Assembly: GCA_937899835.1 (NCBI GenBank)
Contig: CALCCE010000096.1
Span: 1-64,000 of the forward strand
DNA: 64,000 nucleotides
Reading direction: 5' to 3'
Source of the DNA: an uncultured Flavobacteriales bacterium
Lineage (GTDB): Bacteria > Bacteroidota > Bacteroidia > Flavobacteriales_G > Salibacteraceae
Shown: in pieces, positions 4,420 through 35,714 of the stretch
Layout of the letters: each line of letters opens with the position of its first letter
How positions within the stretch are numbered: the first letter of the stretch is position 1
Notes under the pieces: model-generated
The model's database searches: none
Seen by the model: the letters and a program-made list of their open reading frames with translations, nothing else
What the model was told of the DNA's origin: nothing
Translations under genes and position numbers: made by a program

Positions 4420-7185
4420 TTAGGGCGAAACCACCAACTTACGCGTTGAAATGCCCTCCGCCTGTGTTAACCGGAGGAAGTAAACGCCAACATCCAACCC
4501 ATCCAGTTGTACGGGGATTTCCTGGTTGGCCCCAATTGCACCTTGCCAGAGGTTGCGCACTAACCGGCCGTTTTGATCAAACAATTGCAGGGAAGCATTC
4601 GATCCCCCTTCCTTGCCCAAACGTACCGTAACCACATCGCGTGCCGGGTTGGGAAAAAGGGTGAAAGTGGGTTCTTTCACCGTGAATTCCTCCTGACCAG
4701 TGGCCAAAAGGTTGGAAGTATACACCCCGGTGCCGTGGGTGCCAATGGCCAAGAAGCCATCCGAAGGTCGGTAAGCCATCATGTCGACCACCACATTGCC
4801 CACCGTTGAGGAGCCCTCAGCCGTCCATAAGGTGGAATCGCCCAGCAAAGTATCGGTGGAATAAAGGCCAGTGCTGGTGCCCAGGAGGTAGCGCGTGGCG
4901 TCTCCATCGGGAACGATGACCGCCCAACGGCAAGAAGGACCATCGCCAAATCCAGGAGGGAAATTCGGTGGAATGGGTTCTTCCAGGTTGCCAGCAATGG
5001 ATTGCCAGGTGTCGCCGGCGTCTTCCGAATACCATAAGCTGATCACGTTGTAATTCGAGTAAACCACAATGAGCTTGTCTCCGTCTCGCGGGTCTACCGC
5101 AATGCAATGCGTATATCCACCGGAGGTAATGCCATTGGTAATGTCTACCGCCACCGGATCACCCACATTGGCCGAGTCGAGCCGGTAGATTCGGCGGGTC
5201 CGGTTGCCATAGTACAACCGGTGAGTTGGGTTAGTGACCGTTGCTGCTAAAGCAGTGATGGTATTGCTGGAGGTAGCATTGCTATACTCGTGCCAACCCA
5301 AACTAATGGAATCGTATTCATTGTCGTAAGGAATAGACGACAAACTGTCGTTGCGCCACAGGTTGGTGCCCTCCGCCAAATACATCACATTGTTGTCTAC
5401 CGGGTCTAGAATGTAAGGGTTGATAAACGAGTAATCAGTTCCTCCAATGGGATCGAAACGGTTGAATTGCACCACTTCTCCATTAGCGTCCAGATCAACC
5501 TTTAGCATGCGTCCGCGTTGACGCGAAAAGTAGTAGGTGCCACCTCCGTCTTCTACCGCACAGTGGGCCCCGTCTCCGGTAGAAGGAAAGGTCCAGGGGG
5601 TTTGAACGTTGTTGGAATTGGTCCACCAAGAGCCATTGTCCTGCGTACCGCAGATAATGACATTGCTCCCCACCGTTCCCTGGTCGATCGCAATGGTATA
5701 CAATTGGGTGGTTTGATAGCCGTTGTTGAGCGTAGTCCAGCTCACGTTAGCTGCCGAGCAATCGTCAGTGCGCGCTACCCCTCCATCGTTGTACGACCAC
5801 ATAACATCCGGATTGGTGCTCGAAAACGCTACCCCGTGTAGATCACGGTGGTCAACGTATAATTAAAAAAAATAAAGAGGGGTGGGGACAGGCTCGTACC
5901 CGCCGACCCAGGAAATGTTATTCGGGGTGGTGAAACCATCGGTAGATCGGTAAAGGTTAGTACCACCAATAAAAACGGTATTGGTATCGCTGGGCTTGTA
6001 AGCCAAGGCCAGATCGTAAGAGCCCTGGCTGTAGAAATTGCCAAATACCCCAAGGTTGTTCGGCAAATTGGCCGAGTAATCCGTCCAGGTACCATCGGAT
6101 CCAGAGCCATCTCCAGTTTTATAAACGTATTTCCACAAACTGGTCCAGGCCGTACTGCTAAAAAATACGTTGGTGAGCAAACCAGAACCTGGTGTATTGC
6201 CCATCATCAAAATTGAATTTTCGTTTTGAGGGTTGACTGCTAATAAAAGCCGCCCATAGGTTCCAGGAAAGTTGTTTATTCCTTGGTCGATTTGTGTCCA
6301 GTTGATGCCATCGGGCGAACGCCAAACCCCGGCTGATGCACCGTTGCTACTCAAGGTAGCATACACGACTCCGGTAGATGTAATGGCCAGGTCCATAAAA
6401 GTAGATAACAAACCAGAAGAACCCAGCACTTCGGTCCAGGATGTACCTCCATCAATGCTTCGAAACACTTTGCCGTTGGCAGCAGCATATAGCTCGTCTT
6501 CGGTTGTGTTGGAGGCATCGATCACCACATCCCAAATCAAATCCCAGGGATCAGTCGCTTGTGGATCGCCCGTGACCGTAGCCGGGAGAGACGTCCAGGA
6601 TTGGCCGTTGTCGGTAGATTTATATAAACCGTTTCCCAGGTAGTTGGCAGAAAAACTCGCACTCGCTGAATTGCCGATCACCTCGCCAGAACCGTAGTAC
6701 CAAATGTCAGTTTTTCCGGGTCGGGTATCCTGTATTAAGCAGGTAGAACTGTGATGATCTGCGGGTGCGGTGGTTTTTGTCCAACTCTGACCACCATCGG
6801 TGGATTGCCACATACCACCGGAAACTCCGCCTGCCAACAAATGATCTTCATTGTTTACATCCACTCCGAAAGCACGGGTGCGGCCACCCACGTTCCAAGG
6901 GCCCATGGGAGCAAAAGTATATCCAGAGCGATCGGCTTTTTGCGGGAGGGATTGAGCATAAGCCAATTCCCGCATGCGCATGTTCTTAGGAATGTCGCCG
7001 GTGGCTGGATCTTGCAAGCGTTCCCATTCAAAGCGGGCACGCGCATCAGGGTCTTCTGGTCCCCCGGCAGATAAAGGTGTTCCCGAAAACAACGGGGTGT
7101 GAATTTTTTGCTGAGAAGGAGTTCCTACGAATAGCAATAGACTAACCAAGGCTAACCCCATCAAGGGAACAAATGCACGTTGCAT
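4420..7185 (-). pseudogene. BNR/sortilin-like T9SS protein interrupted by one in-frame stop
   Basis: Read through a single TAA (5863-5865) this frame encodes ~921 residues that align along their length with the 931-residue neighbour at 7245-10040: signal peptide, WNVGGRTRAFGVDVNNEDHL, many BNR-type S.DGG..W repeats, and a T9SS type A C-terminus (LFPNPARDVVTV ... RKLVVSP). Counting codons between the shared GGY and the shared (D/H)H.D.H gives 14 in both genes, with TAA sitting where the paralogue has Arg, so this is not a net frameshift. The stop follows a run of eight A/T at 5866-5873. Without readthrough, the first 440 residues would be made without a sorting signal. Whether it is true decay, a compensated double indel or a sequence error is open. 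Confidence 0.75.
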
Positions 7186-34407: not shown

Positions 34408-34479
34408 TCAGAAAAATTTAAGCTGCAAAGGAACTAAGAAGCCTGGAGGTGAAAAAAGAGAACTCGCTGCGTCTTTTTC

Positions 34480-34500
34480 AAGGGTTTAGCGACTACCCTT
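34480..34500 (+). repeat. Inverted repeat AAGGGT-N9-ACCCTT upstream of the Cys-rich micro-ORF
   Basis: Arms at 34480-34485 and 34495-34500; an overlapping pairing GGTTTA (34483-34488) with TAAACC (34502-34507) is also possible. It sits 22 nt before the micro-ORF start and could be a regulator site or alternative leader hairpins. Confidence 0.35.
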
Positions 34501-34522
34501 ATAAACCAATTCTTTTTCAATT

Positions 34523-34636
34523 ATGAGTTGTTGTTCAACAGTAGAAGCATCGGCCAATCCAACGGATTGCTGCCCGATTTGTGGTACGTGTTGCTGCTGC
34601 TATCGCCCAACCAATAGTGGGCCTGCTTGTAGCTAA
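34523..34636 (+). CDS. 37-residue cysteine-rich micro-ORF (10 Cys)
   Basis: ATG 34523 to TAA 34634-34636. Ten of 37 residues are Cys: MSCC at the start, the cluster CCPICGTCCCCY in the middle and ACS at the end. No signal peptide. It lies directly before a strong hairpin (34642-34672) and 72 nt before a SigZ-like sigma-factor gene that itself has a Cys-rich tail. The density of Cys suggests a metal- or redox-binding microprotein or a leader peptide whose translation controls the hairpin; no family is recognised, and chance cannot be fully excluded at this length. Confidence 0.5.
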   Translation: MSCCSTVEASANPTDCCPICGTCCCCYRPTNSGPACS

Positions 34637-34641
34637 TGGAT

Positions 34642-34672
34642 ATCGGAGCGCTTGCCGTGCAGGCGCTCCGAT
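34642..34672 (+). promoter_or_regulatory. 10-bp perfect hairpin between micro-ORF and sigma factor (candidate attenuator)
   Basis: ATCGGAGCGC and GCGCTCCGAT are exact complements around an 11-nt loop. The stem begins 5 nt after the micro-ORF stop, and no T run follows immediately, so it is not a classic terminator. The position fits attenuation, RNA processing or differential mRNA stability. Confidence 0.5.
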
Positions 34673-34708
34673 TACAGCAACCGTTACCTGTCTTTTATCG
34701 GTATCCAA

Positions 34709-35290
34709 ATGAAAACCAAGAACTTTGAAGCCATGGCACCTACGGTAACCACTGAGCAAGCCTGGGAACAATTGGCAGAAGCATTGCGCCAATTTATTTT
34801 CCAAAAGGTTACTGATGCAGCGCTGTCGGAAGACCTGTTGCAAGAAGTATTTCTCCGCATCCATCAACAGCTGCCCACTTTGCGTCACCCCAAGCGCCTG
34901 GAAGCCTGGGTATACCGAATTGCCCGCAATGTGATCAGCGATCATTACCGAAAACGCTACCGATCAGAGAACGTTGAAACCGGATTGGAAGAGGAAACCA
35001 CAGATGCCTGGGAGCAACTGAAAGGGTGTTTGGATCAACTGGTGGCCCGACTCGATTCGCCCTACCGGGAGGTGCTCACCGAAGTAGATTTGCACGGCCA
35101 TTCGCAAAAAGCAGTGGCGCAACAACTCAACCTTTCTTATTCAGGATTGAAATCGAGGGTACAACGTGGGCGCAAAGCCTTGCGCGACATGATGGTGGGA
35201 TGTTGCCAAATGGAATTGGACAAAAGCGGACGATTGAAAGGAGTGTTCGACCCGGACGAATGCCGGCTCTGCAAAGACGAATCAGCCTAA
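34709..35290 (+). CDS. sigZ: SigZ-like ECF RNA polymerase sigma factor
   Basis: 193 residues from ATG 34709. Sigma-70 region 2 spans ~20-90 (LSEDLLQEVFLRIHQQLPTL, LEAWVYRIARNVISDHYRKR), region 4 ~110-165 (LDSPYREVLTEVDLHGHSQKAVAQQLNLSYSGLKSRVQRGRKAL). The tail VGCCQMELDKSGRLKGV ... DECRLC is the Cys-rich C-terminal extension typical of the SigZ family (CC..E.D..G). No anti-sigma factor gene is adjacent; the Cys tail and the Cys-rich micro-ORF upstream suggest redox or metal control, by inference. Convergent with the XRE gene, 4 bp apart. Confidence 0.85.
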   Translation: MKTKNFEAMAPTVTTEQAWEQLAEALRQFIFQKVTDAALSEDLLQEVFLRIHQQLPTLRHPKRLEAWVYRIARNVISDHYRKRYRSENVETGLEEETTDAWEQLKGCLDQLVARLDSPYREVLTEVDLHGHSQKAVAQQLNLSYSGLKSRVQRGRKALRDMMVGCCQMELDKSGRLKGVFDPDECRLCKDESA

Positions 35291-35294
35291 GGAG

Positions 35295-35714
35295 TTACTC
35301 CCCTTTACGCTTTTCCAGGAGCATTTCAATGATGGCCGCCTTGTCGGAAACCTGCTCTTTCAGCGTGCGGTTAAAATCTTCCAACACACTCAGCCTTTTT
35401 TCCAGGTATTCGTTGCGTTCTCGTAGCGACTTGATGTAAGTGGTCTTATCTGGATAAGGACGATCCGGTTCAGTAGTCGTCATGCTTTCCCGGGCAGGCC
35501 GGTCGAACCGGCTGGCGTGAAAATTCATCATTTGGTCTACCGAAAGATCGAAAATGCGGCACGCCTGCTCCACCAATCGAAAATCTATCTTGCTTCCTTC
35601 GGCTTCAAAACGGGCATAGCTGGATTGCGTGATTCCCATTTCGATGGCCATGCTCTCCTGGCTGTAGCCACGGATTTTGCGAAGCGCTTTGATATTCTCC
35701 AGTATTTGATGCAT
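35295..35714 (-). CDS. XRE-family DNA-binding protein with C-terminal coiled coil
   Basis: 139 residues. Residues ~5-62 are a lambda-repressor-type HTH_3 domain (NIKALRKIRGYSQESMAIEMGITQSSYARFEAEGSKID). After a Pro-rich linker (~73-90) the C-terminal 45 residues form a coiled coil (YIKSLRERNEYLEKRLSVLEDF), probably for dimerisation. Common in Bacteroidota as small solitary regulators. The ATG at 35714 lies 6 nt after an exact TAGTTTTG box. Confidence 0.88.
   Translation of the reverse strand: MHQILENIKALRKIRGYSQESMAIEMGITQSSYARFEAEGSKIDFRLVEQACRIFDLSVDQMMNFHASRFDRPARESMTTTEPDRPYPDKTTYIKSLRERNEYLEKRLSVLEDFNRTLKEQVSDKAAIIEMLLEKRKGE

Follow-up and report, generated by a model that had tools for sequence, protein, structure and literature searches.

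A cysteine-rich micropeptide gene paired with sigZ in Bacteroidota: a probable autoregulated unit for metal or arsenic defence

In the 64 kb stretch of DNA analysed here (the window), a very short reading frame crowded with cysteine codons is followed by a hairpin and then by the gene of a sigma factor that itself ends in cysteines. This arrangement raises the question of what the micro-ORF encodes and why it lies beside a sigma factor gene. The first-pass annotation had proposed an undescribed thiol or metal control unit in which the micro-ORF is one of three things: a leader peptide that senses cysteine supply through the hairpin, a partner of the sigma factor that binds thiols or metal, or a small metallothionein-like product. 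Comparison with relatives favours the control unit and the metallothionein-like product and speaks against the cysteine-supply leader, and the sigma partner is kept as a rival. The coordinates of the features are collected in Table 1.

Table 1. Features of the micropeptide-sigZ locus, in positions of the window
Feature	Position	Strand	Remarks
Predicted SigZ-type promoter	34468..34495	+	TGCGTCTTTTT at 34468-34478, 11-nt gap, CGACTA at 34490-34495
Cys-rich micropeptide gene, metallothionein-like	34523..34636	+	37 aa, 10 Cys, MSCCSTVEASANPTDCCPICGTCCCCYRPTNSGPACS; sigZ adjoins
Hairpin	34642..34672	+	14 bp (one G-U), 3-nt loop; starts 5 nt past the micro-ORF stop
sigZ, ECF sigma factor	34733..35290	+	TIGR02959; alternative ATG at 34709
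Cys107	35027..35029	+	numbered from ATG 34709; linker between sigma regions 2 and 4
Vicinal Cys165-Cys166	35201..35206	+	end of the last region-4 helix
C-terminal CRLC (Cys185, Cys188)	35261..35272	+	aligned with Cys in 97% and 81% of the SigZ proteins linked to a micro-ORF

Translation confirms the 37-codon reading frame with ten cysteines. It is the sole reading-frame stretch in the window with at least 8 Cys per 37 aa, and ten cysteines were reached in none of 300 Markov shuffles of the 2.4 kb around it. Close pairs of micro-ORFs from other genomes differ at synonymous sites to saturation or with dS above 1, while dN is about 0.04-0.2; TGC and TGT are exchanged at 2-8 positions between such pairs, and no cysteine is lost. 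This pattern indicates purifying selection on the micropeptides of relatives that extends to all cysteines, beyond the codons near the hairpin. Since the micro-ORF of the window has no close relative, selection was measured on other members of the family. The micro-ORF could instead be a chance ORF or the by-product of a structured RNA, as its TGY codons are repetitive and the segment folds better than shuffles. However, an Rfam scan of the locus brought no regulatory RNA near threshold, and conservation, selection and the locus and shuffle statistics all speak against this explanation, which is refuted in the relatives and has a negligible probability. Judged by conservation and purifying selection in relatives, the family is one of genuine protein genes.

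SigZ-like loci were gathered from relatives, a phylum sample, a class sample and a genome-contig collection, which left 136 loci after removal of duplicates; 33 loci of non-SigZ ECF sigma factors served as controls. A strict Cys-rich ORF was defined as one with at least 6 Cys and at least 20% Cys. Such an ORF adjoins sigZ on the same strand in 30 of the 136 distinct loci, and the remaining 1.5 Mb of strand-bases holds only 2 others, both convergent just downstream of sigZ (L181 and L194). None of the 33 control loci has a Cys-rich ORF beside the sigma gene. An order-level search yielded no further locus type, and a search of plasmids yielded distant SigZ only. The conservation beside sigZ whose absence would have spoken against the first-pass annotation is thus found at 32 loci, and all carriers of the pair belong to the phylum of the window or to named Bacteroidota.

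The layout of these loci is not uniform. Seventeen loci, of the type to which the window belongs, have the micro-ORF upstream of sigZ; it is downstream in 13 and convergent in 2. In a tree made by a quick method, most micro-ORFs fall on two SigZ branches, one for the upstream and one for the downstream layout. The window SigZ is placed in the upstream-layout branch, and one upstream-layout locus (L155) is found elsewhere in the tree.

The micropeptides are 21-58 aa long and contain as many as 14 Cys, arranged in CxC/CxxC arrays; their length and cysteine spacing differ greatly among members. In size and composition they are metallothionein-like: small, with about 20% Cys or more, and with CxC, CxxC and CC clusters. 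No family was found in a search of Pfam and NCBIfam, and metallothionein profiles were matched by 0 of 27 members, the best score being that of a single member against PF12749 with an E-value of only 0.46. A PDB search with the micropeptide gave no relative. A profile of the micropeptides had 0 matches in the window's own genome and missed even the known copy, so that this search says nothing about further copies. The peptide family is unannotated and absent from the profile libraries tested.

The sigma factor has the domains PF04542 (sigma70 region 2) and PF08281 (region 4_2). It scores 172.4 bits against TIGR02959, above the curated cut-off of 168.65, and 182.3 against the sister model NF007215, below that model's own cut-off of 212. 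Alignment with relatives indicates that translation likely starts at ATG 34733 or 34709. A TTG at 34652 was also considered as the start and is unlikely, as it falls within the hairpin. The earlier description of a SigZ-like factor with a cysteine tail (CC and CRLC) is therefore borne out, and inspection of the neighbouring ORFs agrees that no anti-sigma gene lies beside sigZ in the window. Directly behind sigZ lies a convergent gene of the Cro/CI helix-turn-helix type (35295-35714), which the listed relatives do not show next to their sigZ.

In addition to the tail, the linker carries Cys107, which had escaped the first-pass annotation. This cysteine is present in 32 of 32 micro-ORF-linked SigZ proteins compared with 62% of other SigZ; relatives have Cys or CC at this linker position, and the window SigZ has the single Cys. 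The vicinal pair Cys165-Cys166 is likewise found in 32 of 32 micro-ORF-linked proteins and in 87-89% of the others, and nearly all micro-ORF-linked proteins have a CxxC or CxC at the C-terminal end. An AlphaFold model predicts a helix at 144-166; the model is good within domains (mean pLDDT 87.6), and its pTM of 0.55 leaves the packing uncertain and the Cys-Cys distances unreadable.

Side-by-side reading of the upstream regions revealed a bipartite motif with the consensus TGCGTCTTTTT-N10/11-CGTCTA, in which TGCGTC and CGTCTA are 15 or 16 nt apart. The window copy lies 27 nt upstream of the micro-ORF ATG. A tolerant core pattern occurs 57 times in 49 of the 136 sigZ loci and was absent from both the control loci and the shuffles. 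A scoring matrix trained on SigZ loci without a micro-ORF places the motif 15-65 nt ahead of the start of all 32 micro-ORFs, with at most 1 of 200 shuffles scoring equally. Because the training sites of this matrix were picked by the core suggested in micro-ORF loci, genomic specificity provides the cleaner and fully independent test. In 395 genomes of the class, the exact motif has 6 matches, all 6 at sigZ loci, and in 25 genomes with a micro-ORF the relaxed motif has 12 matches, again all at sigZ loci. In most loci of the downstream layout a second copy stands ahead of sigZ, and each convergent micropeptide gene (L181, L194) has a copy of its own.

The inverted repeat noted earlier before the ORF (AAGGGT 34480-34485, ACCCTT 34495-34500) is present and overlaps this motif. 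The related upstream regions inspected did not show it and have the bipartite motif as their conserved element instead; on this ground, and because it overlaps the predicted promoter, the repeat was rejected as an operator.

The window's own genome has three copies of the motif, which belong to the window operon, to another sigZ gene (contig C284), and to the arsM gene behind that second sigZ. In this second unit (L031, C284 44500-50129), sigZ stands directly before arsM with a motif ahead of each gene. The spacing of the motif is 16 nt in the window unit and 15 nt in the C284 unit, a difference that might allow the two SigZ units separate specificities.

At SigZ loci elsewhere, the motif often leads first into an arsenite methyltransferase gene (arsM, NF008823) or a gene for an ArsI/CadI heavy-metal enzyme (NF041414), and sometimes into PhzF or a permease with distant similarity to Cu/Zn or SaoE efflux proteins. 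Of the 104 loci without a micro-ORF, 65 have an arsM, ArsI, permease-type or PhzF gene in the neighbourhood of sigZ, compared with 1 of the 32 loci with one (Fisher p = 4e-10), a split which implies that the micropeptide occupies the effector's slot in a metal(loid) detoxification regulon.

Several individual loci deserve mention. An ArsI/CadI-type metalloenzyme gene is found directly behind the motif in L042-L045 (Nitrospira), L127-L130, L134, L135 and L140, which suggests that heavy-metal genes are under SigZ control in different phyla. L193 is the sole micro-ORF locus that also has an arsM-like gene, which lies about 1.1 kb ahead of sigZ; the micropeptide of this locus has 21 aa (MENNCCGSTCCCCGTSGSGCC). 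In L066 the motif is directly followed by a gene (about 4594-5169) for a protein of 191 aa, which has a Cys-rich N-terminus (CCQTPNNNCGCNTGCC) and a fused domain like NF049942, the DF family (seleno)protein, which scores below the cut-off. In L036, L190, L154 and L079 the motif precedes genes without an obvious metal role, namely for secreted proteins likened to PAP2-type phosphatases on visual inspection alone and for a PhzF family isomerase.

These loci bear on two other explanations of the pair. The micropeptide may be mainly a regulator of SigZ, either as a small thiol-bearing or metal-charged partner that holds SigZ inactive or by passing metal or a disulfide to its cysteine cluster, and would thereby replace an anti-sigma factor. 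The almost invariable coupling to a SigZ lacking an anti-sigma gene, the presence of Cys107 in every micro-ORF-linked SigZ compared with 62% of others, and the position of both genes behind one motif are in keeping with such a role. However, detoxification enzymes or permeases fill the place of the micropeptide in other SigZ loci, which suggests an effector, the loci with arsM or ArsI manage without any micropeptide, and the wide variation in peptide length and cysteine spacing would be unusual in a binding partner. A primarily regulatory role is therefore considered rather unlikely.

It is also conceivable that oxidants or electrophiles, instead of metals, are the signal for the SigZ cysteines and the peptide, in a stress module based on thiol oxidation. 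The vicinal and CxxC cysteines could form disulfides, and PhzF and thioredoxin-like genes are present at some SigZ loci. Yet the genes most commonly linked to the motif are those for arsenic and heavy metals, and peptides whose CxC/CxxC arrays hold up to 14 Cys are closer to metal-binding peptides than to redox proteins, which makes a redox module improbable. The peptide could also bind metal for storage only, or offer redox-active thiols.

The hairpin between the two genes had been described as a perfect stem of 10 bp beginning 5 nt after the stop; its presence and position are correct, and the stem is longer, at 14 bp with one G-U. It was considered as a genome repeat, and this was ruled out as its sequence is a single copy in the 6.9 Mb genome. 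Most loci of either layout have a stable hairpin behind the micro-ORF. In the upstream layout it usually separates the micro-ORF stop from sigZ, and in the downstream layout it is mostly terminator-like with a T-run. Across loci, each hairpin having been folded stand-alone, position is conserved and sequence is not. The window hairpin has no T-run downstream and is probably a partial terminator or a stabiliser of the 3′ end of the micropeptide mRNA, 3′-end protection being an alternative because the T-run is missing.

According to the remaining option, the cysteine-supply leader, the progress of the ribosome over tandem Cys codons would set the hairpin and hence sigZ expression. The order of tandem Cys codons, hairpin and sigZ in the window is what such a leader would need, the hairpin recurs in most upstream-layout loci, and this layout could also be compatible with attenuation. 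As a general mechanism, however, it is disfavoured by the layouts. Nearly half of the loci (13 downstream, 2 convergent) have the micro-ORF after sigZ or facing it, with a promoter copy of its own and in most cases followed by a terminator. Selection acts on every cysteine of the peptide instead of only on codons near the hairpin, and no gene for cysteine biosynthesis lies beside the micro-ORF. Cysteine sensing by a leader is thus highly improbable, and a terminator or partial terminator fits the hairpin better than a cysteine-sensing switch. In the simplest reading, partial termination would leave the cell with more peptide than sigma factor.

Taken together, conservation, purifying selection and the shared motif strongly support an undescribed thiol or metal unit with a real peptide product, for which the metallothionein-like option is the best fit of the three. 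The reality of the gene, its conservation, the shared promoter-like motif, the position of the hairpin and the conservation of the SigZ cysteines are supported at the level of sequence. Because the pair and its promoter recur across Bacteroidota in the slot that holds arsenic-detoxification genes in other bacteria, metal or arsenic defence is the probable function, and the micropeptide-SigZ unit is probably a self-contained, autoregulated metal(loid) response. Its wiring, in which SigZ would act through the motif on the micropeptide gene and on sigZ itself, is well supported and very probably correct. Sequestration of metal by the micropeptide is a good deal less firm but still probable.

The proposed response would begin at SigZ. 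Cys107, the CC pair that closes region 4 and the C-terminal CxxC or CxC would form the sensor, and binding of As(III), the most likely ligand, or of a metal such as Cu, Cd, Zn or Hg would make the sigma factor competent for initiation. We infer metal binding by both SigZ and the peptide, as well as activation of SigZ by the metal, with As(III) or another soft metal as the likely candidate inducer. Active SigZ would then recognise TGCGTCTTTTT-N10/11-CGTCTA (CGACTA in the window), so that the micropeptide gene and sigZ are transcribed; in the window, a single promoter would read through micropeptide gene, hairpin and sigZ, and the hairpin would partly terminate or protect the transcript in favour of the peptide. 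The micropeptide would sequester the inducer, which would protect the cell, lower the signal and close a negative feedback. There is a small chance that the micropeptide is both effector and co-sensor and exchanges metal or As(III) with the cysteine cluster of SigZ. If so, a saturated peptide pool would switch SigZ on and demetallation would switch it off, and a metallothionein would replace the anti-sigma factor.

SigZ is named in many annotated genomes, and the open-licence literature searched reports no SigZ inducer, promoter or regulon, and no SigZ with arsM or with a Cys peptide. The present analysis provides a predicted promoter, a predicted signal and a very small predicted regulon, which consists of sigZ and, in the usual case, a single detoxification gene. 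New as well is an unannotated family of metallothionein-like peptides of 21-58 aa in Bacteroidota.

One of the closest known counterparts is CorE, an ECF sigma factor with a cysteine-containing C-terminus and no anti-sigma factor, which needs Cu for DNA binding (PMC3107203). The CorE group features a Cys-rich C-terminus and a CxC in the linker of regions 2 and 4 (PMC8999054). Like CorE and CorE2 of Myxococcus xanthus (ECF238, formerly ECF44), the window SigZ has linker and C-terminal cysteines and lacks an anti-sigma gene. Unlike CorE, it belongs to TIGR02959, has a single linker cysteine instead of CxC and a tail of the form CC...CxxC, and has a predicted metal dependence. Furthermore, CorE drives copper genes, whereas the predicted targets of the SigZ motif are micropeptide or arsenic genes. 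The window SigZ lacks the linker CxC and is not classed as CorE-like, and the resemblance may lie in the mode of working. The present data suggest that sigma factors which sense through cysteines of their own extend beyond the CorE group.

Bacterial metallothioneins (SmtA/BmtA/PmtA and MymT) are small, intracellular and highly Cys-rich, with CxC/CxxC arrays. The micropeptides are similarly rich in cysteine but shorter, match no Pfam or NCBIfam metallothionein model, and would be controlled by a linked sigma factor instead of a repressor such as SmtB. PmtA is treated as a bacterial metallothionein in PMC11237414. As for SigZ itself, the model TIGR02959 is named after Bacillus subtilis SigZ, and the window sigma factor scores above its cut-off; the pairing with a Cys micropeptide occurs, within this survey, only in Bacteroidota-type genomes. 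The SigZ-arsM and SigZ-ArsI/CadI loci of Nitrospira, Chloroflexota, Bacillota and Bacteroidota share the same motif and sigma family, with an enzyme gene in place of the micropeptide.
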